Shown here in pieces: positions 1 to 19,059 of a stretch of DNA of 64,000 bases. The notes below the pieces were generated by a model that was not told the DNA's origin, ran no database searches, and was given only the letters and a program-made list of their open reading frames with translations. A program made the position numbers and the translations under genes. The stretch comes from Nitratiruptor sp. SB155-2 (GTDB lineage: Bacteria; Campylobacterota; Campylobacteria; Campylobacterales; Nitratiruptoraceae): positions 1,260,501-1,324,500 of the forward strand of contig NC_009662.1 in assembly GCF_000010325.1 (NCBI RefSeq), in the 5' to 3' direction. Positions within the stretch are counted from its first letter, which is position 1. Every line of letters starts with the position of its first letter.

Positions 1-1245
1 CTCTTCAAACCTTAAATTTTTGATAAGCGAATCGATCTTTCGATCCAGTTTTATCCATTTGGCCATAGACTGCATCGTCGCTACACTGACACCTCGCATA
101 CTCTTACCTCTTGCGGCCAATGTCATGATGCGATCATGACTCATTCCTCTCGCTCTTGCCTGGGTTGGCTTGGAGTGCTGTTCTCGCTCTTTCACCAACA
201 CTCCTATCTCTTCCCACCCCTTTTTTATCGCCTCGGCTTCCAGACTCTTCTCATACTTTGCATGGATGCTGAACTCTTCCAGTTCATACAGGATTCTAGC
301 AGGATGGCCGATACGAACAAGGCTGATGTCATGACTGGCAAGACGTTGCAGCATATTGTCAACGGCAGTGTTTGAGTCCGCCGTGGCTAAAACTTTGTTG
401 CCCCGCTTTACTTCTTGTAAGATAAGTTCGATCAAAGTTGACGTTTTTCCGGTTCCCGGAGGTCCGTGGATCAAAAAAACTTCACTCCCTAAAGCCTTCT
501 GTACAGCTTCATTTTGCGATTCATTGAGTTTCGTAACAACTTCAAAACTCTGTTTTTTAGGCTCTTTTGGCTCCCATATGCCAAGAGCGAAGTTTCGCAT
601 ACGCCTTTGCACGCCGGTAGCATGCTGCAAGAGATGAAGATTTTCTTCCATCCTTTTAAATGTTACATCATTGATATATAGATCGATTCGAATGCCATCT
701 CCGTAAACCCACTTTGGAGGTTTCTCTTCAAAAGCTACTGTGATAAAGTTTTTTCTCACTTCACTCACTGTACCAGTAACATCACTTTTAAGAGGCTCTC
801 CACGTGAAATAAGCACGATGTCTCCAGAACCGATCTCCGTATCGATGATACGGCTTCTTCCAAATTTGACAAAATAGAGATTGAGCCGACTGGGCTCCTT
901 GGAGCCTCTAAGCCCCAAAATCGCTCTACCGTAGATTTCACGCTCAGCTCCGCTTAATGCCTTTATCTCCCCTATAGTCGCTTCGATCTCCGCTCTTCTT
1001 TCGGTATTGATCAAATATCGGTACCGCTCACAAAACTCATGGATCTCTTTGATCTCGGCTTCCTCTTCTCGTGAGGGGAAAAGGGATTTATCCAGCCTCT
1101 TTTTGACCCGTTTTTTCAGGCACAGCAGCGTTTTACCATTTGCATAGTAGCTCTTTTTGATATCGGAGAGCTTGATGCCAATCTTTTTTAAAGCTTTTTG
1201 CAGGTCACTTCCACTCAAAACTTTTGGTACAATGAAACAGCTCAA
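1..1245 (-). CDS. SF1 DNA/RNA helicase (IGHMBP2/Upf1-like), 5' part only
   Basis: The frame is open for 415 codons and runs off the left edge, so only the N-terminal part is visible. The chosen start is TTG at 1245, with an AAGGAGG site four bases upstream (1250-1256); no better-placed ATG exists. A Walker A motif, GPPGTGKT, follows about 230 residues of N-terminal domain, and 'ATADSNTAVDNMLQRL' matches motif Ia of Upf1/IGHMBP2-type superfamily 1 helicases. Members unwind DNA or RNA with ATP. The remaining motifs (DEAD-like box, C-terminal RecA domain) would lie beyond base 1. Helicase identity is secure; the cellular role is not. Confidence 0.85.
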   Translation of the reverse strand, partial: MSCFIVPKVLSGSDLQKALKKIGIKLSDIKKSYYANGKTLLCLKKRVKKRLDKSLFPSREEEAEIKEIHEFCERYRYLINTERRAEIEATIGEIKALSGAEREIYGRAILGLRGSKEPSRLNLYFVKFGRSRIIDTEIGSGDIVLISRGEPLKSDVTGTVSEVRKNFITVAFEEKPPKWVYGDGIRIDLYINDVTFKRMEENLHLLQHATGVQRRMRNFALGIWEPKEPKKQSFEVVTKLNESQNEAVQKALGSEVFLIHGPPGTGKTSTLIELILQEVKRGNKVLATADSNTAVDNMLQRLASHDISLVRIGHPARILYELEEFSIHAKYEKSLEAEAIKKGWEEIGVLVKEREQHSKPTQARARGMSHDRIMTLAARGKSMRGVSVATMQSMAKWIKLDRKIDSLIKNLRFEE

Positions 1246-1292
1246 TGAGCCTCCTTGATTTTTAAACGCATTTTAGTACAAAGGGAAAGAAT

Positions 1293-2030
1293 ATGCAAAA
1301 ATCTGTCTTTGTAGCCGGATGGGAAGATTTTATGACAAAAAAGTTTTTGGCTATCACTTTTGTTCCATTTTTTTTGACACTTTTGCTTTTTACAGCCATT
1401 TTCTATGGCGGTGGACAGGAAATCCTTCACATGCTTGAGCAACTTGCACAAAGTCCTAACGCTATTAACGATCCCTCACTTGCCCTTTTTGCAAAAGAGC
1501 ATCCTATCCTTGCATGGCTTGCAAGCAATTCCGTTACCCATTTCATTATCGCTACGTTGTTAACCGTTCTTGGAGTGCTGTTTGCTATTTTGCTCTCCAC
1601 TGCCACCGCTACGATCATCATGGGATTTTTCACTCCCTATATCATCAAAGAGATCCATAAACGTCACTACAGCCACTTAGATATTGGCAAAGGACTTGGG
1701 ATCATCGAGTACATGGTACTGATGGCAAAGATCATCGTAAAAAGTATAGGACTCTTTTTGCTCTCTTTTATACTCTACTTCATCCCTCTGCTCAATGCCA
1801 TTGCACTCAATATCCCTTTTTACTATCTTTTCCACTCCTTTTTGAGTCTCGATGTGGGAGGAGAGATCATGAGCAAAGAGGAGTTAGAAAATATTGTAAA
1901 GAAGTATCGTTTCAAGATTATGGGAACGACGGGAGTACTCTATCTCATCACTCTCATACCGATGGCCGGTATGATACTGCAGGTCTATTTTGTAAGCGTT
2001 ATGGCACACCTTTTCTTTCGGCTCAAGTGA
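1293..2030 (+). CDS. EI24-domain integral membrane protein
   Basis: This 245-residue protein has four or five hydrophobic segments (around residues 20-40, 70-105, 140-175 and 215-240). The layout and sequence style match the EI24/CysZ-like family of bacterial inner-membrane proteins, where CysZ is a sulfate permease. A weak AAAGGGA site precedes ATG 1293. It is divergent from the helicase and its last 8 bases overlap the 3' end of the broken galE on the other strand. The substrate is unknown. CysZ identity cannot be claimed from sequence alone. Confidence 0.7.
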   Translation: MQKSVFVAGWEDFMTKKFLAITFVPFFLTLLLFTAIFYGGGQEILHMLEQLAQSPNAINDPSLALFAKEHPILAWLASNSVTHFIIATLLTVLGVLFAILLSTATATIIMGFFTPYIIKEIHKRHYSHLDIGKGLGIIEYMVLMAKIIVKSIGLFLLSFILYFIPLLNAIALNIPFYYLFHSFLSLDVGGEIMSKEELENIVKKYRFKIMGTTGVLYLITLIPMAGMILQVYFVSVMAHLFFRLK

Positions 2031-2185
2031 GCTTCTTCTCCCACTCAAGCGCCGTTTTGCAGATAAGCTCCAGATCGTTGTATTTTGGTTTCCATCCCAT
2101 TTTTTGTTGAATTTTTTGGGAATTTGCTATGAGAATGGCCGGATCACCGGCTCTTCTGCCAGTAATTTCCACCAAAAAATTGTAA
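2023..2185 (-). pseudogene. galE: galE/gne-type UDP-sugar 4-epimerase, C-terminal remnant
   Basis: About 53 codons encode the typical end of a UDP-glucose/GlcNAc 4-epimerase, with the conserved RRAGDPA stretch and a GWKPKY motif before the stop. The piece has no start of its own and begins directly at the IS end (2186). Together with the N-terminal remnant at 3406-3921 it accounts for about 225 of the usual 330 residues, so roughly 100 middle codons (the RYFN and substrate-binding region) are absent. This is a deletion-plus-insertion allele, not a simple interruption. Confidence 0.9.
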
Positions 2186-2207
2186 TGACCCCTTACTTTC
2201 TGCACAC

Positions 2208-3026
2208 CTAAGCCACTAAACGAAACACTTCCGCAGGTGTTTTGTACTGCAGCGCTGAATGTTTTCGTTTTTGGTTGTAAAAATTGATCCATTCTCCAAT
2301 GATTTTGTTTGCCTCCTTGAGTGATTTGAAATTGTAGTGCCAGATACACTCTTCCTTTATGGTTCGGAAAAATCTCTCAATCATGCCATTCTGTTCAGGA
2401 GTATAGGGAGTGATAAATTCCTGAGTAAAATTGTAATCTTGAGCTGTTTTGGTGAACGATTTACTGCTAAATACTAGGCCGTTATCGCTTCGAAGGATAA
2501 TTGGCTCTTGTAGTCGTTTGAGTTTTCCAAAGCGATAGATTAGACCTTCTTGCAAAACTGCCTCTGCTGTTGTTGCTTTACCGCTTTTAGAAAGTCTCCA
2601 TCCAACGATTTCTCTTGTATAAGTATCAATCACACAAGCCAAAGTACTCCAGCCATCACCGCTACTGTATACACGGGTCATATCAATGGCCCATCTTTGA
2701 TTGGGATAGTGTGAACGCGAAGGCATCATTTTGGCTCTTGGCCTATGGCCTTTGGAACGCTTTCTTACCTGCCAACTTTTTAGTTGCAGAATGCGCTGCA
2801 CCGCTTTTTTGTTCATCCCAAGCAGCAAAGCTAAACGACGATAGCCATACGTTGGAAACTTTTCAATCATCTCTTTGACTTTTTTAACACGCCCCTCATC
2901 TAGTTTTTGCATTCTTTTAATTGGTTTATAATAAAAGCTCCTGCGTGGAAGATCAAAAAGAGAACAAAGCTTTGTGATGCTGATTGAGTAACCTTCATTT
3001 CTCATCTCGCTCTGAACTTGCATCAC
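2208..3026 (-). CDS. IS3-family transposase OrfB (DDE integrase core)
   Basis: This 272-residue protein has the rve integrase core. The three acidic residues are visible in WAIDMTR, RSDNGLVF and QNGMIERFFRTIKEE, the spacing expected of the IS3 DDE triad. An HTH_21-like stretch (YGYRRLALLLG) lies before it. A GTG start at 3026 overlaps the OrfA stop as GTGA. The frame is also open upstream to an A AAA AAG slip site at 3056-3062, so the active form is probably an OrfAB fusion made by -1 frameshifting. The frame looks intact, so the element may still be active. Confidence 0.93.
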   Translation of the reverse strand: MMQVQSEMRNEGYSISITKLCSLFDLPRRSFYYKPIKRMQKLDEGRVKKVKEMIEKFPTYGYRRLALLLGMNKKAVQRILQLKSWQVRKRSKGHRPRAKMMPSRSHYPNQRWAIDMTRVYSSGDGWSTLACVIDTYTREIVGWRLSKSGKATTAEAVLQEGLIYRFGKLKRLQEPIILRSDNGLVFSSKSFTKTAQDYNFTQEFITPYTPEQNGMIERFFRTIKEECIWHYNFKSLKEANKIIGEWINFYNQKRKHSALQYKTPAEVFRLVA

Positions 3027-3343
3027 TTCTTCTCTTTTCCGAACAGAGCGTCGTACTTTTTTAATGCGATATTCTCCAATGTCAATTCACCTATAACTGC
3101 CTTCATATCTTTTATCTTCTCTTCATACATGGCAGCTATATCTTTAGGTCTGGCTCGAAGCTGATTCTCCATCCCTCTGCAAGCCTCTTCCATCCACTCC
3201 TCTATTGCTCCAGGTGCCAAATCATACTTTCTCGCAACTTCAGATACTGTAGTTTTTCCTTGAAAAATATCCATGACTATGGAAGCTTTCTTCTTTGCTG
3301 TAAAACGCTTTATCTCTTCTTCATTTATATTTAATTTCTCCAT
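3023..3343 (-). CDS. IS3-family transposase OrfA (helix-turn-helix)
   Basis: This 106-residue basic protein has an N-terminal helix-turn-helix region (KTTVSEVARKYDLAPGAIEEWMEEA) and a heptad-like C-terminal part, as in OrfA of IS3 elements. OrfA binds the IS ends and oligomerises. The stop overlaps the OrfB GTG. Twelve codons before the stop the sequence A AAA AAG (3056-3062, zero frame TTA AAA AAG) is the slippery heptamer typical of the family. Confidence 0.9.
   Translation of the reverse strand: MEKLNINEEEIKRFTAKKKASIVMDIFQGKTTVSEVARKYDLAPGAIEEWMEEACRGMENQLRARPKDIAAMYEEKIKDMKAVIGELTLENIALKKYDALFGKEKK
3056..3062 (-). promoter_or_regulatory. Programmed -1 frameshift heptamer A AAA AAG
   Basis: The OrfA codons TTA AAA AAG contain the heptamer A AAA AAG. 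After slipping back one base, the reading continues VRRSVRKREEVMQVQ into OrfB with no stop codon. The same heptamer drives OrfAB synthesis in IS911 and related elements. This is direct from the sequence; the efficiency is unknown. Confidence 0.8.
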
Positions 3344-3405
3344 CTTTGACCCTTTTATCTTTCACTCTTTATGTATTATATCCTGTGCAGTTGGGCTGGG
3401 GGTCA

Positions 3406-3921
3406 GTATATGTAAGCATTCGCAGTATCTTTTAAAATCTGCTCGCTCATCAGTTTGCTTTGGCCGTAAGGATTGATAGGATATGTGGGAGCCTCTTCTG
3501 TGATTCCACCCATTGGTACACATGCTGGCTCTCCATAGACTGCTGCTGTAGAAGAGAAGATAAACTTTTTCACTCCGTTTTTTTCAGCCTCTTGTATCAA
3601 ATTGGCGGTATTTGCAGTATTGTTTAGATAATATTTCAATGGATTTTCTACAGATTCTGGAACAATCAAGGCAGCCGCAAAATGGATGATGGCATCAAAT
3701 CTGTTTTTTTGCATAAAATCATACAAAGCATCCCAATCAGACAGATCAAGCCTCTCAAAAACAAAATCTCCATAATGCTGTTTCAAGCGATTAATCGTCT
3801 CTTGAAAGCCTGTCGAGAGATTATCGATAACCGTGATCTCGTATCCACCCTTTTTGAGTAGCTCTTTGACTACATGTGAGCCTATATACCCTGCACCACC
3901 AGTTACGAGTATCTTTTGTAC
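3406..3921 (-). pseudogene. galE: galE/gne-type UDP-sugar 4-epimerase, N-terminal remnant
   Basis: The frame encodes a Rossmann glycine motif (VTGGAGYIGSHV), the S-T-A region (FSSTAAVYGE) and the catalytic YGQSK (YxxxK), then ends at residue ~170 where the IS begins. This is the N-terminal half of a GalE/Gne epimerase that makes UDP-Gal or UDP-GalNAc. There is no ATG, GTG or TTG in frame between the upstream in-frame stop (3948) and the glycine motif. GTA at 3921 sits 6 bases after AGGA, so the start may have been GTG and decayed. It lies directly downstream of pglF, where Campylobacter carries gne. Confidence 0.88.
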
Positions 3922-3932
3922 TAATAATCCTA

Positions 3933-5678
3933 TTATCGCTTCGGATTATATTCTGGAACAATCTCTCTTAGAGTTTTGATAATATCCTCTTTTTTTTCAC
4001 ATTTCAATAAATATTCTATTTGATATTGTAGTTTGTCAATGCTATAGTTTGTAGATTCTGCAACAAAAATATCTTTATATTTTGTTTTTTTGCTTGCTTC
4101 ATTAAACAAAAGTTCTTCATAGAGTTTTTCTCCTGGTCTTAAACCAGTAAACACAATTGCATTATCGTCTTTTCCAGAAAGTTTTAACATCTTTTTAGCT
4201 AGGTCAACTATCTTTACAGGTTCACCCATATCTAATATAAAAGTTTCTCCAGTTTTAGCTAAGCTTCCAGCTTGTAATACTAATTGACATGCTTCAGGGA
4301 TAAGCATAAAATATCGAGTTACTTCAGGATGGGTCACTGGTAAAGGTTTATTTTGTGAGATTAATTTTTTAAATTTTGGTACCACGCTCCCACTGCTTCC
4401 TAATACATTACCAAAACGTACAGTACACATTTTTGTATTTTTTGAATCTACGTTTTGGACATAGAGTTCACATACTCTCTTTGTTGCACCCATTATATTG
4501 GTTGGACGTACTGCTTTATCTGTGGAAATAAATATAAAATCTTGAACCCTTCGTTTTATTGATAGATCGATGACATTTTTTGATCCAAGAATATTATTTA
4601 TCACTGCACTTCTTGGATTATATTCACATATGGGAACATGTTTATAAGCAGCTGCATGAATAACAATCTGGGGCTCTTCCTTTTCAAAAACCTCCTCTAG
4701 AGCATCTTTATCTACAATATTAATAAGATAAGGTTTTCTAGGCAAATGCAATTCTTCGTTTATTACATATAAATTATATTCACAATTATCCACTAAAACT
4801 AATTTTTTTGCTCCATATTTCTCACATTGCCTTGCTATTTCACTTCCTATACTTCCACCAGCGCCTGTTATAAGAATTTTTTTATTTTTCACAAAAGCTC
4901 TAATGGCATTTTTATCTAAATCCTTTGGTTTTCTTGCTAAAATATCTTCTATAGATATATCTTTTATTCTTTCTTCGAAAGGATTATAAATTTTAACATT
5001 TACTATCCCCTGACCATGTAAAAAATCTACTAACTTATCAAGATCTTTCTGAGACAACTCTTTCGTAATTATCGCAGTTTTTATTTTATTATCTACATTT
5101 TTGATATCATAAACTTTGTATCCATACATATATGTACCAACTATATTTTTTTCATTATCATATATTTTTATAATTGAGTAAGGAATATCTTGTTTCAAAA
5201 GTGAAATAGCTTTATCATTCGCACCAAATATAAAAGCCGGGGTCCTATTCATTGATATTTTTTCATACATTAATCTTTTTGAGATTCTAAAAAAACCAAT
5301 GAAAAGTATAGATAAGAAATAATCTATAAAAATTACACTTCTAGGAAATGGTGAAAAGATATCTCGAAGTAGTAAAAGAGTAGCACCTCCCAAAAAATAA
5401 GCCAGTGTTGTGGCCATAAGTAAAGATTTTAGCTCCTGGAGTGAAAAAAAACGCCAGCTAACAAAATAGAGTTTAAAAAGATAATAAAAAAATATTTTAA
5501 ATAGAATCAATACTAATGCTATATTAAAAAAATTGTAAAGATACTCTTTTGGAATGGAAAAATTGAAACGAAGAAGGTAAGCAAGATAGAGGGTCAAAAA
5601 GGAGATGACAATATCACCTAGCAGAAAAAAAAATGCTCTTTTCATATTCGTAGGTTTAAGAAAATTTGATAATTTCAC
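3933..5678 (-). CDS. pglF: UDP-GlcNAc 4,6-dehydratase, membrane-bound (PglF/FlaA1 type)
   Basis: This is a 581-residue protein with about four N-terminal membrane helices (residues 12-125), a middle Rossmann-like domain, then an SDR dehydratase domain from about residue 265. That domain has TGAGGSIGSE and the STDKAVRPTNIMGATK active-site stretch, with Met in place of the usual SDR tyrosine as in PglF. The family converts UDP-GlcNAc to the 4-keto-6-deoxy sugar, the first step to UDP-bacillosamine. It overlaps pglE by 23 bases. Alternative: another CapD/WbpM-type dehydratase. The pglE and pglC neighbours favour PglF. Confidence 0.9.
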   Translation of the reverse strand: MKLSNFLKPTNMKRAFFFLLGDIVISFLTLYLAYLLRFNFSIPKEYLYNFFNIALVLILFKIFFYYLFKLYFVSWRFFSLQELKSLLMATTLAYFLGGATLLLLRDIFSPFPRSVIFIDYFLSILFIGFFRISKRLMYEKISMNRTPAFIFGANDKAISLLKQDIPYSIIKIYDNEKNIVGTYMYGYKVYDIKNVDNKIKTAIITKELSQKDLDKLVDFLHGQGIVNVKIYNPFEERIKDISIEDILARKPKDLDKNAIRAFVKNKKILITGAGGSIGSEIARQCEKYGAKKLVLVDNCEYNLYVINEELHLPRKPYLINIVDKDALEEVFEKEEPQIVIHAAAYKHVPICEYNPRSAVINNILGSKNVIDLSIKRRVQDFIFISTDKAVRPTNIMGATKRVCELYVQNVDSKNTKMCTVRFGNVLGSSGSVVPKFKKLISQNKPLPVTHPEVTRYFMLIPEACQLVLQAGSLAKTGETFILDMGEPVKIVDLAKKMLKLSGKDDNAIVFTGLRPGEKLYEELLFNEASKKTKYKDIFVAESTNYSIDKLQYQIEYLLKCEKKEDIIKTLREIVPEYNPKR

Positions 5679-6726
5679 AAATCTCCTTTACCAGGTTTTT
5701 GGTAAGCGTGGTACCGCTTGGAAGGCATAAACCCTTTTTAAATAATCTCTCACTTCTACCATTGATATAGCTTTTTGCCCCATTAAATAAAGGCTGAAGA
5801 TGCATTGGGTTCCAAAGAGATCTGCTCTCAATCTGCTTGTCTTTTAATTTGTTTATCACTTCCCACGGGTCTTTTTCTTTGAAAACAATAGTTGTAAGCC
5901 ATCTTGTCCCTCTAGTCCCAGGAAGTTCTGGCATAAACTTTTCATCCAAAAACTCTTGATACCAGTGAAAAATCTCTCTTTTTTTCGCAATTCTTTCTTC
6001 TATGACTTCCATCTGCCCTACACCAATGGCTGCTAAAATATTACTCATACGGTAATTGAAACCAACTTCTTCGTGGACATATTCTATAAATCCAGGTTCT
6101 TTAGCTTGGGTCGAAAGAAATTTTGCTTTTTGTATAAGCTTTTCATCATCACTCACCAATACTCCGCCACTACTTGTTGTTAAAAGCTTATTTCCATTGA
6201 AACTAAACGCACCAAAAATCCCAAAGGTCCCAGAATGCTTTCCTTTGTAAAAAGCTCCTAGACTTTCAGCCGCATCTTCTATAAGGTAGATATCATTTTC
6301 CTCACAAAGTTTTTTAATTGGATCAATATTAGCTACCTGTCCATAAATGTGTGGGAGAATAACAGCTTTTATATCATTTTCTTTGATAGCTTTTTCCAAA
6401 AGCTCTACATCCATGTGCCAATACTCATCTACATCTATAAAAATTGGTTCATTTCTTTCATAAAGAATCGGATATACTGAACCAATAAAAGTAAAAGTAG
6501 ATACTGCGACTTGTGAGTCTTTCACTCCCAAAACCTTCAATGCCAAATGCAAAGCACTCGTAGCATTGCATAACGCAACGGCACTTTTTACATTTGTATA
6601 CTTTTTAATAGATTCCTCAAATCTATCAATAAACTCTCCATTTGGTGCGATATAGTTACTTTCAAAAGCTTGTTGGATATATTTTAGCTCTTTTCCACTC
6701 ATATGAGGAGGTGAGAGAAAAATCAC
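5656..6726 (-). CDS. pglE: UDP-4-keto sugar aminotransferase (PglE-like, DegT/DnrJ family)
   Basis: This 356-residue PLP enzyme has the internal-aldimine lysine in SFNGNKLLTTSSGG (about residue 183) and the DAAESLG motif, both standard for DegT/DnrJ/EryC1/StrS sugar aminotransferases. Placed between pglF and pglC, it probably transfers an amino group from glutamate to UDP-4-keto-6-deoxy-GlcNAc. A following acetyltransferase (PglD) is not present in the window, so either it lies elsewhere or the sugar stays un-acetylated at N4. Confidence 0.9.
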   Translation of the reverse strand: MIFLSPPHMSGKELKYIQQAFESNYIAPNGEFIDRFEESIKKYTNVKSAVALCNATSALHLALKVLGVKDSQVAVSTFTFIGSVYPILYERNEPIFIDVDEYWHMDVELLEKAIKENDIKAVILPHIYGQVANIDPIKKLCEENDIYLIEDAAESLGAFYKGKHSGTFGIFGAFSFNGNKLLTTSSGGVLVSDDEKLIQKAKFLSTQAKEPGFIEYVHEEVGFNYRMSNILAAIGVGQMEVIEERIAKKREIFHWYQEFLDEKFMPELPGTRGTRWLTTIVFKEKDPWEVINKLKDKQIESRSLWNPMHLQPLFNGAKSYINGRSERLFKKGLCLPSGTTLTKNLVKEICEIIKFS

Positions 6727-6728
6727 AT

Positions 6729-7322
6729 TTAGCCTTTAATTGTTTTTATAATATATTTAATATCTTGCGCAAGGGACCAATGTTCAATATACTCTTTATT
6801 TATTTTCACCTTATCAGGCCAAATTATTTCATCATTGTACTTTTTAGGATCATCTACCTCAGCTAATATCTTTTCTTCATCTTTATACTTTATCGTAGCA
6901 GGACCAGTAATGCCAGGTTTGATAGATAAAAGAATTTGGTCTTCATCTTGGAGTTTGTCCATATATCCAGGAACATCTGGTCTAGGACCTACAAAACTCA
7001 TATCTCCTTTAAGAATATTAAAAAGTTGTGGCAATTCATCTATTTTATAACGACGTAAAAAACGCCCACTTTTCGTAATACGGGCATCATTGGCTGTTGT
7101 AATGGATGTTCCGTTTAGATGCGGATACATTGTTTTTATTTTAATTATTGTAAAAAGCCTACCACCTTCTCCCACCCGCTTTTGAAAAAAAAATCCATTG
7201 CTCTTCGTTTCAATTGAAGCCACAAACCAAGCAACAAGAATTACAGGCCAAACGACAACAAGTCCAATTAATGCCAATATGACATCAAAAGTTCGTTTAA
7301 TAATTTTTTGTTTTGGGCTCAT
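6729..7322 (-). CDS. pglC: Polyprenyl-phosphate sugar-1-phosphate transferase (PglC-like)
   Basis: This 197-residue bacterial sugar transferase has one N-terminal membrane segment with an internal proline (VILALIGLVVVWPVILV), forming the re-entrant helix of monotopic PglC-type enzymes. The catalytic Asp-Glu pair is in YKIDELPQLFNILKGDMSFVGPRP. It attaches the first sugar phosphate, probably bacillosamine-type, to undecaprenyl phosphate at the inner membrane. The start overlaps the pglB stop by 4 bases. The short length matches PglC and not the larger WbaP class. Confidence 0.92.
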   Translation of the reverse strand: MSPKQKIIKRTFDVILALIGLVVVWPVILVAWFVASIETKSNGFFFQKRVGEGGRLFTIIKIKTMYPHLNGTSITTANDARITKSGRFLRRYKIDELPQLFNILKGDMSFVGPRPDVPGYMDKLQDEDQILLSIKPGITGPATIKYKDEEKILAEVDDPKKYNDEIIWPDKVKINKEYIEHWSLAQDIKYIIKTIKG

Positions 7323-9448
7323 TTGATTCTATAAATTTTCATCCAAGGACTTAATATCACAGGCTCAAAGAGCATAGGATCATAATTATCAAATAGATAC
7401 ATTTGGAAAAAAATGGAATTAATATACTTATTATCTGCTATAATAGCTTCGCCAAAGCTTTTATTGATAATAAGGCTTAATCCTTTGTCACGAATTTTTT
7501 GTTCTTTATAATGACTTTTCCCATTTTGATCAATACCTATAATATAGACGTTTTTAATTGGAGCCTGCTGGTTCCCGATAAGAATAACAGCCCTTCTTAG
7601 ATCAACTATAAGTTGTCCGATATAAAGTTTCCCTCCTTTTTGAACTACTCTATTTTTGTAATAAAATTTCCTAGAATAAACCTTCCCAGTATTAAGATTA
7701 CGTTCAGAAAAATAAGCAACTGTTGGGAATATATCAAACATTCTGTGAGGTAAAATTAAATAAATATCTCTGTTTAATTTTGGTGGTTTATATTCTTTTG
7801 TTGAAAGATTGGCAAAAAATTCATCAACATTAATCACTTTTTTGTTTTTTATAAACAATTGTGGTGCAACAGTTTTGTTCGTATCTACATATACTTTGAT
7901 GGAAAGTTTCGCTAGATTTGCAGCCAGGCGTTGATCTGAGGTAGTAAGAATCTTTGAAACCAAAAAGTTATCTTCATTGTGTTTCCCCCCATCTATAAGA
8001 GTATTAACGTCTGCATAATACCAAATAGGATATCCATAATCCCACCACGTAATTGCGTAATCTTTAGGAAAACTTTTTTTGTTAAACTCATTAAGTAAAG
8101 CTACTTCACTTTTTAAAAGAGTTGTTGGCGTCAAATAGGGATAACTTTTTAGAGGATAAAATTCCTTGATACTATCAAGCCAACTTACCTTTTCGCAACA
8201 TCCGGTAATATGCGTAATATTTGGAGCCAGGAGAAAAAGAGTACCTAGACTCACTGCTGCTATACGGACCTTTTTGGCTTCAAAACGCTCAGAAAGCCAA
8301 AAAAAGAAGTAAACTGCACTCATTGCGGCAATCGGGACTGCATAAACAGTAAATCGGAGGCCTCCAAAATAGGCAAAAAAACCTATCCCCCACAACGGAA
8401 GCGCAATAATAAACTCTTTATTGCGAATGAGTAATAAAATATATCCTGCAACAGCAATAACAAGCCCCAATAGAGAACCTACAATCCTATCCGCTACGAC
8501 TTCGAAAGGAATTTTACCAGCCTCTCTGACCGTTTCGTTGACGTTAAGAAAATGGAGACCAGCAATTTGATCGGTATGAGAAGTATAAGAGAAAACTTTA
8601 TGCAAAATAATCCCAAAAACATTCCCTATCAAAATAAATGCCAAAAAGCTCACACCTGCAGCAATTTGAAATTTTTTGAGCTCAGTATCATAAGTCTTGA
8701 GTAGAAACCAAAGAACTATCACAAGCAAGAGTTTAAACATCCATAAAATAGGCATTAGTGCAAAAGAAAAAATGATAATCGCTTTATAAGTAAACTTTTC
8801 ATAGCGATAAAACAAAACCAGATACAAAAACATCATAATTCCCATCGCGTAAACAATGGAAAGCCCTTGGTCATAAAGCCAAGGATAAAGAATAACAGTC
8901 AAAGAGGCTGCTAAAATATAGTTTAAAGAGCGAGATTTTATAGCTGAGATCAAAAAAAAGAAAACAAACATAGGTAGCATTGCACTGAACATATCGGTAT
9001 CGTAGTAACCAGCCAATGTCCGGTTGTAGTAGCTCCAGCCAATAGACGCAATAAGCGCACTCAAAAAACCCCATATAACATTGCCATAGAGTCTACCAAC
9101 CAAAATGATTGGTATAACAACAAGGGAACTAAGAACAGGAGGTAAGTAAAGCATCGCCGTATCAAGAGAAATTGGCAGAAGTTTAACGATATAGGCGGTA
9201 ATTACTGCCGTGCCGTACCGCCATACATCCAAGAGCCTTGGATTATCTAGATGCTCATGATACAAAATTTTTTGCGCCCCACTTCCAAAAAAATATCCAT
9301 CTACATTATTAATCATTAACTGGCCATTCCAAAAAAATTCAGGGTTATGACTTGCCCACCCAATCCAGTAAAGATGGAATAGATAAGAAAATATATAGGC
9401 TGTAACAATGGCCAGTATCATCACCATGCTCTTTTTTTGCACATACAT
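7319..9448 (-). CDS. pglB: PglB-type N-oligosaccharyltransferase (STT3 family)
   Basis: This 709-residue protein has about 11-13 membrane helices over the first ~430 residues and a soluble periplasmic C-terminal domain. The acidic motifs NVDGY and YYDTDMF fit the divalent-metal sites, WWDYG is the sequon-binding signature (about residue 465), and RMFDIFPTV gives the MxxI motif of bacterial PglB. The enzyme transfers a lipid-linked glycan to Asn in D/E-x-N-x-S/T sequons. Its place with pglC, pglE and pglF argues that protein N-glycosylation is the output of the operon. Confidence 0.95.
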   Translation of the reverse strand: MYVQKKSMVMILAIVTAYIFSYLFHLYWIGWASHNPEFFWNGQLMINNVDGYFFGSGAQKILYHEHLDNPRLLDVWRYGTAVITAYIVKLLPISLDTAMLYLPPVLSSLVVIPIILVGRLYGNVIWGFLSALIASIGWSYYNRTLAGYYDTDMFSAMLPMFVFFFLISAIKSRSLNYILAASLTVILYPWLYDQGLSIVYAMGIMMFLYLVLFYRYEKFTYKAIIIFSFALMPILWMFKLLLVIVLWFLLKTYDTELKKFQIAAGVSFLAFILIGNVFGIILHKVFSYTSHTDQIAGLHFLNVNETVREAGKIPFEVVADRIVGSLLGLVIAVAGYILLLIRNKEFIIALPLWGIGFFAYFGGLRFTVYAVPIAAMSAVYFFFWLSERFEAKKVRIAAVSLGTLFLLAPNITHITGCCEKVSWLDSIKEFYPLKSYPYLTPTTLLKSEVALLNEFNKKSFPKDYAITWWDYGYPIWYYADVNTLIDGGKHNEDNFLVSKILTTSDQRLAANLAKLSIKVYVDTNKTVAPQLFIKNKKVINVDEFFANLSTKEYKPPKLNRDIYLILPHRMFDIFPTVAYFSERNLNTGKVYSRKFYYKNRVVQKGGKLYIGQLIVDLRRAVILIGNQQAPIKNVYIIGIDQNGKSHYKEQKIRDKGLSLIINKSFGEAIIADNKYINSIFFQMYLFDNYDPMLFEPVILSPWMKIYRIK

Positions 9449-10444
9449 CTACATTCCTTTTATTTTCATTTTCAAAACATCGTATAATCCCGCTAAACTA
9501 CCAACTCCATAACTAAAATGCAGTACCAAAAAAGCGAGTATTTGATGCAATAGAGAGGTATCTTTTTTTATTTGTAAACTTCTCAGTATTATTATAATCA
9601 AATAAAGAGTAAGCAAGAATAAAAACAGATAGAGCATCCATGAAGAAAAAAAGCTCAAAATCAAGCTAATGAGCAATGTCAAAACAAATAAAAGAGGGAT
9701 GAAGTGGCGCAAAGACAAAGAGGAGAGCGTTTTTGTGTAGTATGCTGTCAAGATATTCCATTTTCCATTTTCAAAGCTGTTTTTGGCCAAATCTTTGAAA
9801 TTTTCTCTTGCATAATAGGTACATGTTATATCTGGAACCAAATAGATCTTACCACCTGATTTTTTTAGCCGTTTATTGAACTCGATATCTTGATTACGAA
9901 TAAGCCGTTCATCATAGAGACCAATTTTATTAAAGATCTCTTTCTTATAGCATCCAAAAGGGACAGTATCTACCTCTTGGATCTTTTTTACTCCGCTTCT
10001 GAAGGCGCTCCCTACTCCCAATCTGTCGCTTAAAACATTTTTGATGGCATTGGAGGTTTTTGTTTTATTTTTGACTTCGGTAATAACTACTCCGCCTACA
10101 TTATCCGCATTCAACTTTTTGTGCCAATGAATAAGCTTACTAAAGTAGTCTCTTGGATAGAAGGAGTGAGCATCTAGACGAATAACATACTCCCCTTTTG
10201 CATTTTTGATACCTATATTCATCGCAATTGAAACAACTTTTTTAGGATTGTGGAGAAGTTTAAAAAACTGATACTTCTTTTGATACTCTTTTATAATATC
10301 TATCGTCTTATCACTACTTCCACCATCAATGAGTAAAACTTCCATTTTATCTTTAGGATACTCTTGCTCAATAATGGAATCCAAACATTTAGCAATATAT
10401 TTTTCTTCGTTATAAATAGGAATAATAACAGAAATTTTGCTCAC
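9449..10444 (-). CDS. Family 2 glycosyltransferase with C-terminal membrane helices
   Basis: This 331-residue protein begins with a GT-A fold (SVIIPIYNEEKYI, then LLIDGGSSDKT and RLDAHSFYP as the DxD-like region) and ends with two or three hydrophobic helices from about residue 235. It resembles ExoA-type enzymes. It is expected to add a sugar to the undecaprenyl-linked glycan on the cytoplasmic side. Donor and linkage cannot be read from the sequence. It abuts pglB by one base and overlaps the next gene by four. Confidence 0.85.
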   Translation of the reverse strand: MSKISVIIPIYNEEKYIAKCLDSIIEQEYPKDKMEVLLIDGGSSDKTIDIIKEYQKKYQFFKLLHNPKKVVSIAMNIGIKNAKGEYVIRLDAHSFYPRDYFSKLIHWHKKLNADNVGGVVITEVKNKTKTSNAIKNVLSDRLGVGSAFRSGVKKIQEVDTVPFGCYKKEIFNKIGLYDERLIRNQDIEFNKRLKKSGGKIYLVPDITCTYYARENFKDLAKNSFENGKWNILTAYYTKTLSSLSLRHFIPLLFVLTLLISLILSFFSSWMLYLFLFLLTLYLIIIILRSLQIKKDTSLLHQILAFLVLHFSYGVGSLAGLYDVLKMKIKGM

Positions 10445-12452: not shown

Positions 12453-13650
12453 TGAGTAATCTTTTTTTGTATTTAAGTGCTAATAAGAACATTCCCAAAA
12501 AACTTACAATAAAACTGTAAATTACACTTTTTGCATCAAAATGCATTATATAAAACAGTGCAACTACAGACAAAAAAAGTAAAAAGCCAAAAACTCTTAC
12601 TCTGAGTGCCAAGTCAAATCTATTAAATCCCTTAAGAATATTTAATGAAAAAGTAGTATATGCTAGAAATGGGAGCGTTGGCAAGAGAAGATTAAGCATC
12701 TTATAACTTTTTTCATACTCTCTTGGAAAAATAAACTTTACTATGAATGGCGTAAGAAAAAGACTTACAATAATTACTAGAAAAAAGATACTCAAATAAA
12801 AAATAAGTTTTCTATCAAACCTTTTGATCTCATCTATCATACCTCGAGCAATAAGTTTGGATATCTCAGGAAATGTAAAACTATTGAGAGGAAAAACAAA
12901 TATAGAAACCAGTGAAAAAAAGATACTTCTAATAACAACTTGATACTCCGACAAAAAATCTATATCTCGAAAAAGTTTTATAATAATTAATGATGCCAAA
13001 CTTATTCCTAGCCCACTAAAAAAGTACATTAAAGCCGTTAAGATATTGTTTTTGAAAAAATCTTTCACCTGATTAAAGGTAAATTTTTCATAAGTAAATT
13101 TCAATTCAGAGAACTTATAAATAAAAAAGACTTTTATGAGATACGAAAATACAAAAGCAAGAAAAAGGCTATTTAAATCATCCAAAAATGAGCTCAAAAT
13201 AAAAAAAGATCCAACTAATCCTATTGCCATAAATAGATTTTCAAATAGCATAACCCTATACTGCTTCCATGCGGCATTGAAATAGGAAAAAAATATCGCC
13301 AAAGCATTCACAAAAAGCATAATCACTAAATAATAGAGAGGAAAAATTTTATATTCAAAAAAATAGTTATAATAAATAATTTCAAAGCAACAAGTTATAA
13401 TAAAAAGTCCCCAAAAAGAAATTAAATACCAATAAACAACTCCCTTGAAATACTCTTCATCAAAAGCTTTAACTAGACTATCTTTAAATCCACTAAAAGC
13501 CATTACCCCAATAGCAATGAGATCCATAAAAGTATAAAATAAACCTAACTCATGTTTTGATATTTTATAAGAGAGATATATTTTAAATAAAAAATTTATA
13601 CCCATAACCAAAACAGTGATAAAAGATGAAGAGAGTAAAAGTTTTTTCAT
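12418..13650 (-). CDS. Wzx-type polysaccharide flippase (MOP/PST superfamily)
   Basis: This 410-residue protein is almost entirely hydrophobic, with about 12 predicted membrane helices and charged loops, typical of Wzx/RfbX O-antigen flippases. It should move the undecaprenyl-linked oligosaccharide to the periplasm. In Campylobacter the N-glycan is flipped by the ABC transporter PglK, which is not in this window, so this gene is the natural candidate to feed PglB. Very AT-rich with many poly-A/T runs. The family call is firm and the substrate is inferred. Confidence 0.82.
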   Translation of the reverse strand: MKKLLLSSSFITVLVMGINFLFKIYLSYKISKHELGLFYTFMDLIAIGVMAFSGFKDSLVKAFDEEYFKGVVYWYLISFWGLFIITCCFEIIYYNYFFEYKIFPLYYLVIMLFVNALAIFFSYFNAAWKQYRVMLFENLFMAIGLVGSFFILSSFLDDLNSLFLAFVFSYLIKVFFIYKFSELKFTYEKFTFNQVKDFFKNNILTALMYFFSGLGISLASLIIIKLFRDIDFLSEYQVVIRSIFFSLVSIFVFPLNSFTFPEISKLIARGMIDEIKRFDRKLIFYLSIFFLVIIVSLFLTPFIVKFIFPREYEKSYKMLNLLLPTLPFLAYTTFSLNILKGFNRFDLALRVRVFGFLLFLSVVALFYIMHFDAKSVIYSFIVSFLGMFLLALKYKKRLLNENTLYSSCTK

Positions 13651-14330
13651 TGTATTTTTTTGATTATCGCATAAAACTTAAGAACAAATTGGAAAATCAA
13701 AATTGCAAAAGCCATATAGACAAAAATTACATGTTGAAATATTGGATAGAAAAATAATAGCAGTGCTTCTACTTCAATTGTAGATGGAAATGGCTGTATG
13801 TGTTTTTCTTTCATAAAAAGAAGATATCTTTTTAGCAAATTTTTCTCATGAGAATTTTCTAAATCTTTTGTAATACTTTTACTTCCTTGATAATAGAGCA
13901 TATCGTTATATTTGTTTACCAAGCAATTAAAAAAAAGTAACAATAAGAGCACAATCAACAAGTAAACTTGATTAAATTTAAGAAACAAAATCACAAATAA
14001 AACAGGAGCTTTTATCCAATCTGTAAAAACATCTAAAAAAGCACCAAATTTTGATGTTTGGTGAGTAACTCTTGCCAATGCACCATCTACTATATCTAAA
14101 ATATAACTAAATTGATATAAAAAAGCACCTAAAATATAATATTCTTTCCAAAAAGCAATTCCTGCAAAAATAGCAACTATTAAACTTAATAAAGTTACTT
14201 GATTTGGAGTAATTTTTGTTTTATTGGCAAGGTATTTAGTGATAATTAACGATATTTTCAAATTTATAATCAAATCCCACCAGTTACGCTGTTTAAAGAC
14301 TTGTTCAATATGCTTTTTCTCGATTACCAT
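13647..14330 (-). CDS. CDP-alcohol phosphotransferase, copy 1
   Basis: This 227-residue membrane protein has the full family signature DIVDGALAR-x8-G-x3-D-x3-D (around residues 80-105). These enzymes move a phospho-alcohol between a CDP-linked donor and a hydroxyl acceptor. An N-terminal WWDLIINLKIS stretch resembles inositol/glycerol phosphate transferases. It overlaps the second family member by 7 bases. Because a TagD-like cytidylyltransferase sits two genes upstream, the donor may be a CDP-polyol rather than CDP-diacylglycerol. Acceptor unknown. Confidence 0.82.
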   Translation of the reverse strand: MVIEKKHIEQVFKQRNWWDLIINLKISLIITKYLANKTKITPNQVTLLSLIVAIFAGIAFWKEYYILGAFLYQFSYILDIVDGALARVTHQTSKFGAFLDVFTDWIKAPVLFVILFLKFNQVYLLIVLLLLLFFNCLVNKYNDMLYYQGSKSITKDLENSHEKNLLKRYLLFMKEKHIQPFPSTIEVEALLLFFYPIFQHVIFVYMAFAILIFQFVLKFYAIIKKIQ

Positions 14331-14911
14331 TTGAATATCCTATAAAAATAGAACACTATCCCTAAAGCATATAAAAACACTAGGAATAATAATATTTTTG
14401 GATAAAACAGACTTATACTCAAAAATAAAATAACAAAACTCCTATTTAAAAAATAGATAGGTGAAAATATAATTTTTTCTCTTTTATTCAATTTTTCAAA
14501 TTGCACATGAGAATAAATCAAAATATCTTGAATATACGAATACAACATATTTAAAAATATTAATAAATTACCTGAGGAAAAATTATATCTATAAACAAAT
14601 ACCAATAATATTGCATTTTCTACAATTCTATCTGAGATATTGTCTAAAAAAGTGCCTTTTTTAGACAATTGTTTAGTTGCACGTGCTAACTGTCCATCTA
14701 CACAATCAAATAAAAAAGATAGATGCAACAATAAAAATGACAGAACTCTATACTCATAAAAAAAAGATGCTGCAGCAAATATGCCTAATAATAAACTTAC
14801 TGTTGTTATTTGATTTGGAGTCATTTTAGTTTTTGACAAAAGCAATGTCAGTTGATAAGCTATTTTTTGATAAACATAATATGATAAAATATCGGTATAC
14901 TTAATTATCAT
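14324..14911 (-). CDS. CDP-alcohol phosphotransferase, copy 2
   Basis: This 195-residue paralogue of the neighbouring gene has the intact motif DCVDGQLAR-x8-G-x3-D-x3-D (residues ~69-94) and five or six membrane helices. The two copies differ strongly in sequence, so they probably use different acceptors or act in successive steps. The ATGA-type overlap with the cytidylyltransferase gene links their expression. Confidence 0.82.
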   Translation of the reverse strand: MIIKYTDILSYYVYQKIAYQLTLLLSKTKMTPNQITTVSLLLGIFAAASFFYEYRVLSFLLLHLSFLFDCVDGQLARATKQLSKKGTFLDNISDRIVENAILLVFVYRYNFSSGNLLIFLNMLYSYIQDILIYSHVQFEKLNKREKIIFSPIYFLNRSFVILFLSISLFYPKILLFLVFLYALGIVFYFYRIFKW

Positions 14912-15366
14912 TCAAAATGCTTTATAAGTTTATCAACTTCGTATTGGAGTTTTTTCAAATTTTCTATATTAATATCTAAATATTTTTTTAACCTATCTTT
15001 TAATAAAGTTGTTGAAATATTATCCGTTCTTTCTAAATATACTACTTGACAATATTGTTGTAAATAATCAAATTTCCCTTTCCAATCACTTCCCATAACA
15101 AAAATATTAATATTATATTTTTTAATATCTTCAATTTTTTGCTCCCAACTATTCTCAGGAAATACAAAATCAACATATCTAATACTTTTAACAATCTCTA
15201 CTCTATCCTCATATGGAATAAAAATATCTTTATTTTTTAGTTTATTAAACTCATCAGTTGATACTCCAACATATAACTCATCTCCCAAAGCTTTAGCTCT
15301 TTTTAATAGATTTAAATGACCTATATGAAACATATCAAACGTTCCATACGTTAACACTCGTTGCAT
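14908..15366 (-). CDS. TagD-like cytidylyltransferase (glycerol-3-phosphate type)
   Basis: This 152-residue protein has the nucleotidyltransferase HxGH motif (FDMFHIGHLNLLKRAK), the ISTT motif (RTDNISTTLLK) and the GSDWKGKFD segment of TagD/TarD enzymes, which make CDP-glycerol from CTP and glycerol-3-phosphate. An ADP-sugar or other CDP-alcohol synthase is possible. It starts inside the last codons of the toroid-methyltransferase gene and precedes two CDP-alcohol phosphotransferases, so a CDP-alcohol pathway is likely. Confidence 0.83.
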   Translation of the reverse strand: MQRVLTYGTFDMFHIGHLNLLKRAKALGDELYVGVSTDEFNKLKNKDIFIPYEDRVEIVKSIRYVDFVFPENSWEQKIEDIKKYNINIFVMGSDWKGKFDYLQQYCQVVYLERTDNISTTLLKDRLKKYLDINIENLKKLQYEVDKLIKHFE

Positions 15367-17111
15367 AAAACTTTTCCTTTTAGAAAATAGTATCTATTTA
15401 CAAATCTCTTTCCATTTCCTTCAATAACTTCAATATTTTCTAATTTGAATCCATTTTCTTTCAAAATTTTTTCCCACTCCTTTTCACTATACCATTTCTC
15501 TCTAAAAGGGGAATCAAAAGGATACATCCATTTACCTTTGAATTCCAAAATAGGTTTTAATATTCCTAAAATAGAATAAGGATTTCTGTCTCCTATAATT
15601 ATCTCACCATTATTTTTTAATACTCTTTTAATCTCCTTTAAGGCACTATCAATATAAGTATGTTGTAATACTTCAAAAGCCATTACTACATCAAAAAAAT
15701 TGTCTTTAAAAGGAATATTATAAACACTACTTTTTAAAATATTTTCTTCTTCAAAGCCAGGATCTAGTCCAAAAAACTCTATATTCTTAAACTCTTTTTG
15801 TAGTTCATTTATAATTGCCCCCTTCCCACATCCAACATCAAGCACTTTTATCTTTTTATTTTTTGACAAAATATTCTTTAATCTTCTAATATACTCTTTA
15901 TCCATATAAGATAAATTATTTGTTACTACATCAGAGAAAATATTGAAAGCATTTTTTACGAAATTTTCTTGTTCAATTTCTTTACTTAAATTTTCATATT
16001 CCAACAAAGCATCTATAAAAAACTTATTTGTCCAATTGACAAAATCAAAGCTTCCATATTTTCCCCAAAAAGGAATAGAAGCACTAAATCCGCCTTGCAT
16101 AATTGAGCTTTTAAGCTGTTTTGCTTTAAGATAAAAAATGGTATTTATCGCACATTTTTTATAATCTTCATCATTAGTTATTTTATAGAGCCTTAAAGCA
16201 ACTCCAGCCCATTGAGCAAGACCTGTCATACATCTTTCTTTGTTTACACAATTGAAACTACTATCATATTGAGAACATAATATCAAATCTCGATTTAAGT
16301 TTATCTCTTTGAAGCGATTTGCATTTTTCAAAATAGCTTCTAAAATCTTTTTATCTCTATTTAATTCAAAAACATCCAATAATCCTTCTAAAACATAAAT
16401 TAAAGTATGCAAAAATGGTGGTACACCTTCTAAAAAAGAAGAAAGTTGAAAAAAATCATTTCCATCCTGCTTACTTAAAACCCACGCAATACTTTTTAAA
16501 GCTGCCTCTTTAATTTTTTCATCATCTGCTAAATTTCCATATATATACATCGCAGCTGCCACGCGCGAATAATAGGTATGAGGCTGCTTATTGTAAGCTA
16601 CTCTTTTCCAACTACCATCCTTTTCTTGGTTATTTATAAGCCAGTATGCTGCTTTTTTTGCTACTTCTAAATACTTTAGATCTTTCATTTTTTTATACAA
16701 AAAATTAAGCCCAATCAAACATTGACCAGTATCAAAAGCAAAGGGCTCGTGATGATCTATTTCACTAAAACTTCCATCTTCATTTTGCACACTTAATAGC
16801 CACTCTCCTGCTCTTTTAGCAGATTTTATATAGCTATCTTCTTTTAAATATTCCCCAACTCTCCACATCGATGGTATGAGATACCCGGTCGTTTCAATAT
16901 AACTTTTATCTCTTCCATCGATGAAGGAGAATTTCCTGCTATATCCACCATCTTCATTTTGCATAAAAAGTAACCAATCAGCAGCCAATTTCAAATGTGT
17001 TGTATTGTCAAAAACAGTTTCATCATACAAAGACTCTATAGAAACCTGTAAAATATTTGGATATTTTAAGGTATGTAAAAATCCAAAAATTTTATAAAAT
17101 TGTTGTTTCAA
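15351..17111 (-). CDS. Alpha/alpha-toroid domain fused to a SAM methyltransferase
   Basis: This is a 586-residue two-domain protein. Residues 1-390 carry repeated helical-hairpin signatures (QNEDGGY, QNEDGSF, QEKDGSW) like the QW repeats of terpene cyclases and the toroids of glycosidases, lyases and uronate epimerases. Residues ~410-580 are a type-11 methyltransferase with VLDVGCGKG (motif I) and [10 protein letters not shown]. The TTG start at 17111 has an AAGGAG site 8 bases upstream. No signal peptide is seen. The N-terminal domain could act on a glycan or a polyprenol; sequence alone does not decide. Confidence 0.75.
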
Positions 17112-18231: not shown

Positions 18232-19059
18232 TTATAGTCTCCTATCAATCACCTCTTTTGCTTTATAGGCCAAATAGTATGGATCTACTCCAATACAGTG
18301 TCCTCCCACAAGACCTGGCCGAAATGGCAAGAAATTCCATTTGGTTCCTGCGGCCTCTAAGACATCGAGTGTATCGATATTTAGTTTATCGAAGATGAGT
18401 GCCAGTTCATTGACAAAACCTATATTGATATCTCTTTGGGCATTTTCTATCACTTTTGCAGCCTCTGCTACTTTGATGCTTGGTGCTAGATGAGTGCCAG
18501 CTGTGATAATACTTTTATAGAGTGCATCCACTTTTTGTGCAATCTCTGGAGTACTGCCGCTTGTTACTTTTTTGATATTTGGTAGACGATGCTCTTTATC
18601 TCCTGGATTGATGCGTTCGGGAGAGTAGCCACAGAAAAAGTCTTTATTAAATGTAAGTCCACTTTCACGTTCCAGTTCAGGAACGCATACCTCTTCGGTA
18701 CATCCTGGAAAGACGGTGCTTTCATAGATAACGATATCCCCTTTTTTAAGGACTCTTCCAACAGTTCTTGAAGCCATGACAAGAGGAGTGAGGTCTGGAT
18801 TTTTGTGTGTATCGATGGGTGTTGGGACGGTAACGATATAGATATTTGCTTTTTTGATATCTTCTATAGATGTGGTAAAAGATAATTTTTTTGCTTCTTT
18901 GAGTTCATCTTCACTCACTTCCAGTGTTCTATCGATTCCCTTTTTTAATTCTTCGATTCTATTTGCGTTGATATCAAATCCAATCGTTTCATACTTTTTG
19001 CCAAACTCCACAGCTAGTGGTAAGCCTACGTAGCCAAGGCCGATGATGGATAGGGTCAT
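18232..19059 (-). pseudogene. wecC: UDP-ManNAc dehydrogenase, truncated (WecC-like)
   Basis: The protein begins with the normal NAD-binding motif ([16 protein letters not shown]) and contains the central catalytic helix ([18 protein letters not shown]), but stops at 275 residues. Family members are about 420 residues, so the whole C-terminal UDP-binding domain is missing. The catalytic-cysteine region is retained, but substrate binding should fail. The stop lies 3 bases before wecB, so a deletion probably joined the two genes. A short functional variant is unlikely but not excluded. Confidence 0.8.

Follow-up and report, generated by a model that had tools for sequence, protein, structure and literature searches.

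A galE/gne gene at the end of the pgl N-glycosylation cluster of Nitratiruptor sp. SB155-2 is broken by an IS3-family element

Results

An IS3-family element and a deletion split galE/gne

We analysed a window of 64,000 nucleotides from the complete genome (1,877,931 bases) of Nitratiruptor sp. SB155-2, hereafter G000, in which a galE/gne gene on the minus strand is split by an IS3-family element beside pgl genes. The locus was compared with that of its closest relative, the sister species G001, and with other relatives. The features are as follows.

2023..2180, minus strand: 3' galE/gne remnant, the last ~52 codons with RRAGDPA; TIGR01179 positions 278–328, at least 85% identity to G001
2181..3410, minus strand: IS3-family insertion sequence (NF033516 IS3 transposase), 1230 bp, with ends TGTAATGACCCC / TATACTGACCCC (outer to inner) common to copies and remnants in G000, G002 and G003
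2208..3026, minus strand: OrfB of the element (rve integrase core), 272 aa, open, overlapping OrfA
3023..3343, minus strand: OrfA of the element (HTH_Tnp_1), 106 aa, open
2180..2181 and 3410/3411, no strand: joints between element and host, where 339 bp of G001 (L044 9200-9538) are missing by DNA alignment
3411..3921, minus strand: 5' galE/gne remnant, the NAD-binding half with the GGAGYIG, SST and YxxxK motifs; TIGR01179 positions 1–162, 93% identity to the G001 GalE
3919..3921, minus strand: start position of galE, reading GTA, against ATG (10) or GTG (2) in the 12 galE genes from 11 relatives
3933..5678, minus strand: pglF-like UDP-GlcNAc 4,6-dehydratase (PF02719), directly upstream of galE, seen in this position only in G000 and G001 (synteny)
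5656..9448, minus strand: pglE-like aminotransferase, pglC-like phosphoglycosyltransferase and pglB oligosaccharyltransferase, all open

The original prediction, that an IS3 element had broken the gene with a loss of about 100 codons, was borne out by comparison with G001, which carries no element here and has a full-length frame at the same locus, not a short gene. Window positions 1-2180 aligned without gaps to L044 7020-9199 of G001 (90.6% DNA identity), and the window from 3411 on aligned to L044 from 9539 on, so that 113 codons of G001 have no counterpart in G000 and the element occupies their place. The missing region is thus real against an aligned GalE, and the predicted absence of the RYFN strand and the substrate loops holds, since both, together with DYIHVDD, are encoded in these 339 bp. 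The remnants retain the GGAGYIG motif, the catalytic YxxxK (NPYGQSK; YGQSK) and the C-terminal RRAGDPA, and lack everything from RYFN to DYIH. The 5' frame is open for ~170 codons, enters the element and stops immediately. Both remnants matched the NCBIfam galE model TIGR01179 (332 positions), scoring 205.7 and 58 bits, below its curated cut-off of 262.3 bits for a whole-length match, compared to 466.6 bits for the full-length G001 frame. The locus is a pseudogene of the TIGR01179 family rather than a member enzyme. Named relatives of this gene belong to Nitratiruptor and other vent Campylobacterales, from metagenomes.

The element lacks a target duplication

The element has the organisation of the IS3 family, with an HTH-containing OrfA, an overlapping OrfB with an rve core that exceeds the cut-off for the IS3 transposase model, and related terminal inverted repeats, TGTAATGACCCC and TATACTGACCCC. 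We presume that its ends (TGTA...) resemble those of IS150. The 3-4 bp target duplication of the family is absent at galE, as had been predicted from the flanks GTAA and GTAT. These bases are nevertheless not host flanks but part of the element, because other copies carry them at their ends as well: each of the five left ends found has TGTAATGACC, and each of the six right ends has GTATA, with GGTCAGTATA in four. The termini were confirmed by a related copy in G003, which is bordered immediately beyond these ends by a perfect 4-bp CAAT/CAAT duplication. That G003 copy (L052 and L054, 1425492-1428070) is itself interrupted by another insertion. The true host flanks at galE are AAAT/TGTA, without a duplication, as would be expected after an IS-adjacent deletion, and the site was altered during or after insertion.

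G000 holds only two full copies of the element. The second, at 750.9 kb, is 99% identical and inverted relative to the galE copy; no target duplication was present at it, and G001 has nothing corresponding to its flanks. An inversion between the two copies was considered as the cause of the missing duplication and rejected, since the swapped flanks mismatch as well and the two galE halves still lie together.

The 5' end of galE is damaged differently in the two sister species

The element is not the sole lesion in G000, as the GTA start shows. In the 12 genes of the 11 relatives, the galE start precedes the GG motif by 6 or 7 codons. No NTG triplet occurred in any frame of the G000 coding strand between the pglF stop (3933-3935) and GGAGYIG, and the next possible in-frame start lies 38 codons past the GG motif. 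Truncation of the 5' end by the pglF joint was ruled out for G000, where the normal-looking AGGA site ahead of galE and its spacing are retained and the start codon is the sole difference. The GTA change may postdate the insertion.

The G001 galE keeps GTG CAA AAA at its start and has a net loss of 4 bases just after, reading VQKY* from its GTG. One of the four lost bases falls in an A run, so a partial sequence error is possible there; the net 4-base difference is, however, spread over two places and extends beyond the run. The frame is otherwise full length and conserved: 7 of 177 outgroup-invariant positions are changed in the protein, 3 of the 7 at the damaged 5' end. With different 5' defects in G000 and G001, neither gene is an intact reference.

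Over 166 codons, the galE remnant and G001 differ by ~37 synonymous and 16 nonsynonymous changes, where ~125 nonsynonymous changes would be expected without selection. The resulting dN/dS of 0.10 (rough 95% range 0.05–0.18) can be set beside the 0.05–0.12 of most intact neighbour genes. This low ratio indicates that selection acted on galE through most of the period after the two species diverged and that the loss of the gene is recent.

The pgl cluster was probably remodelled around galE

Matches to PF21436, PF02516, PF02397, PF01041 and PF02719 identified the neighbouring genes as a pgl N-glycosylation cluster, although the G000 PglB scored below the narrow NF050801 cut-off. The gene had been predicted to be galE/gne, with Gne supplying UDP-GalNAc for Campylobacter N-glycans; a GalE/Gne-type gene does lie in a pglB cluster here, in a host genus that is Nitratiruptor and not Campylobacter. 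The gene order in G003, G009 and G015 is pglB-pglC-galE-GT4-WbaP-like transferase, and G004 has pglB-pglC-galE up to the contig end. In G000 and G001, pglE and pglF lie between pglC and galE, and the GT4/WbaP pair after galE is absent. A distant GT4/WbaP-like pair (52% and 39-45% identical) is located elsewhere in G000 (~1.425 Mb) and in G001. Counterparts of the remaining glycosyltransferases of the cluster were absent from the loci read in G003, G004, G009 and G015.

DNA identity between G000 and G001 drops from ~90% to ~75% at the galE/pglF joint. Synonymous divergence is 1.05–1.33 from pglF to the GT2 gene, compared to 0.27–0.48 for galE and the genes either side. This roughly threefold difference covers window positions 3933-10444, with a sharp boundary where galE starts, and such a jump suggests that the pglF-GT2 stretch is probably a cassette exchanged in either the G000 or the G001 lineage.

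Two further observations concern the glycan genes of the window. A UDP-ManNAc-dehydrogenase-like gene of the wecC type (18232-19059, minus strand) also looks decayed, with 275 aa compared to 417 aa in G003; in G001, a similarity of only 33 residues is left of it between wecB and mutS2 (L093 11425-11523; L094 807-2060). Positions 13647-17111 encode two CDP-alcohol phosphatidyltransferases, a cytidylyltransferase and a prenyltransferase-like/methyltransferase protein, which suggests a phospho-linked decoration.

No second GalE among the Epimerase-family matches scanned in G000

The search for a second epimerase, proposed with the original prediction, returned eight Epimerase-family matches in the G000 genome, including the galE remnant and pglF. 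None of the matches scanned passed the galE cut-off. The other six were a GDP-mannose dehydratase, an ADP-heptose epimerase, a LegB-like reductase, a UDP-glucuronate-epimerase-like protein and two short-chain dehydrogenases; G001 has the first four as well. A back-up epimerase was rejected for G000 among these matches, which are other enzymes. UDP-Gal and UDP-GalNAc would then no longer be made in G000.

Among other genomes with PglB-like genes, galE was not found in G016, G018 or G013, the last a fragmented assembly. In the related genus represented by G020, a second galE (contig 35, 14105-15090; L072 and L073) is decaying, with several in-frame stops, and an intact copy lies elsewhere.

Discussion

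The reading we favour, and consider likely, is that a recent galE/gne pseudogene ends the pgl cluster, the locus having been remodelled first and the gene then lost separately in G000 and G001. In the common ancestor of the two species, pglE and pglF would have come to lie between pglC and galE and the GT4/WbaP-like pair would have gone, which would leave the epimerase without a local user and galE dispensable. The gene would have stayed in frame until recently and then been lost in both sisters: in G000 through insertion of the IS3-family element, an IS-adjacent deletion of 339 bp, by which one copy of the target site was lost, and the GTA start, in any order; in G001 through the net loss of 4 bases after the start codon. 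The changed neighbourhood suggests that the need for the epimerase fell before or during the loss, and we infer that it preceded it. The purifying selection that lasted until recently implies that galE was used after the two species split, so the need would have been lost late or in part; the distant GT4/WbaP-like pair kept by both species also counts against the favoured reading.

The full length and conservation of the G001 frame outside its 5' end, as well as the low dN/dS, would also suit a simpler course, in which insertion and deletion were a single inactivating event without prior relaxation of need, the GTA start arose by later neutral decay, and the G001 galE is functional, its 5' end being explained by a sequence error in the A run or by a tolerated start. 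We regard this as improbable, because the G001 difference lies in two places and reaches beyond the A run, and the absence of the GT4/WbaP neighbours is common to both species. It is also very hard to credit that the 5' remnant, open for ~170 codons as it is, still yields a useful product or that frameshifting from pglF rescues its translation: the start codon and the substrate-binding part are gone, and G000 and G001 have galE in different frames relative to pglF, which leaves no common rescue.

The 339 bp might instead have been removed by homologous recombination between two copies of the element within galE, a route compatible with the rest of the favoured course. One intact element without a duplication would fit this equally well; it would need, though, two insertions in the same orientation within 340 bp, where G000 as a whole has only two full copies, and we consider the route unlikely. 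The deletion was more probably IS-adjacent.

As to the glycan, the earlier expectation that it may be altered unless another epimerase exists is weakened because the GT4/WbaP-like genes are absent and G001 has a galE defect of its own. Only tentatively, and with more doubt than confidence, do we suggest that two sister vent species with a complete-looking pglB cluster separately discarded GalE/Gne after a glycosyltransferase exchange, and that their N-glycans, unlike those of their congeners, are without Gal and GalNAc. As a natural strain lacking galE/gne in an otherwise open pgl cluster, G000 would be useful for learning which sugars the N-glycan of a vent bacterium needs. Otherwise this is an ordinary case of gene decay with an IS-associated deletion, apparently repeated in the sister species, and both its mechanism and its kind are already known.

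Among solved structures, the nearest to the full-length G001 protein is 7k3p (418 bits, compared to 288 for the next), titled UDP-glucose 4-epimerase, which we take to be the Campylobacter jejuni Gne (UDP-GlcNAc/Glc 4-epimerase). As read from the alignment, the two have in common the Leu of RRAGDPxxL near the substrate gate, and in our host genus too galE is encoded beside pgl genes. The resemblance to 7k3p and the gate Leu are the two features that point to a putative Gne type, accepting UDP-GlcNAc. Unlike the C. jejuni gene, that of G000 is broken in three ways, and the neighbour genes differ.

The element shares with the IS3 family its OrfA/OrfB organisation, rve core, match to the IS3 transposase model and length of ~1.2 kb, whereas at the galE site it lacks a target duplication and the neighbouring DNA is deleted. 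A study of evolved E. coli populations (PMC11708052) recorded 83 IS movements, 14 of which were accompanied by deletions, 14-48,894 bp in size; every one of these 14 involved an IS150-type (IS3-family) element and was explained as an adjacent deletion. The galE site likewise has an IS3-family element at a deletion joint and no target duplication, and differs from the E. coli cases (PMC11708052) in coming from a natural genome.
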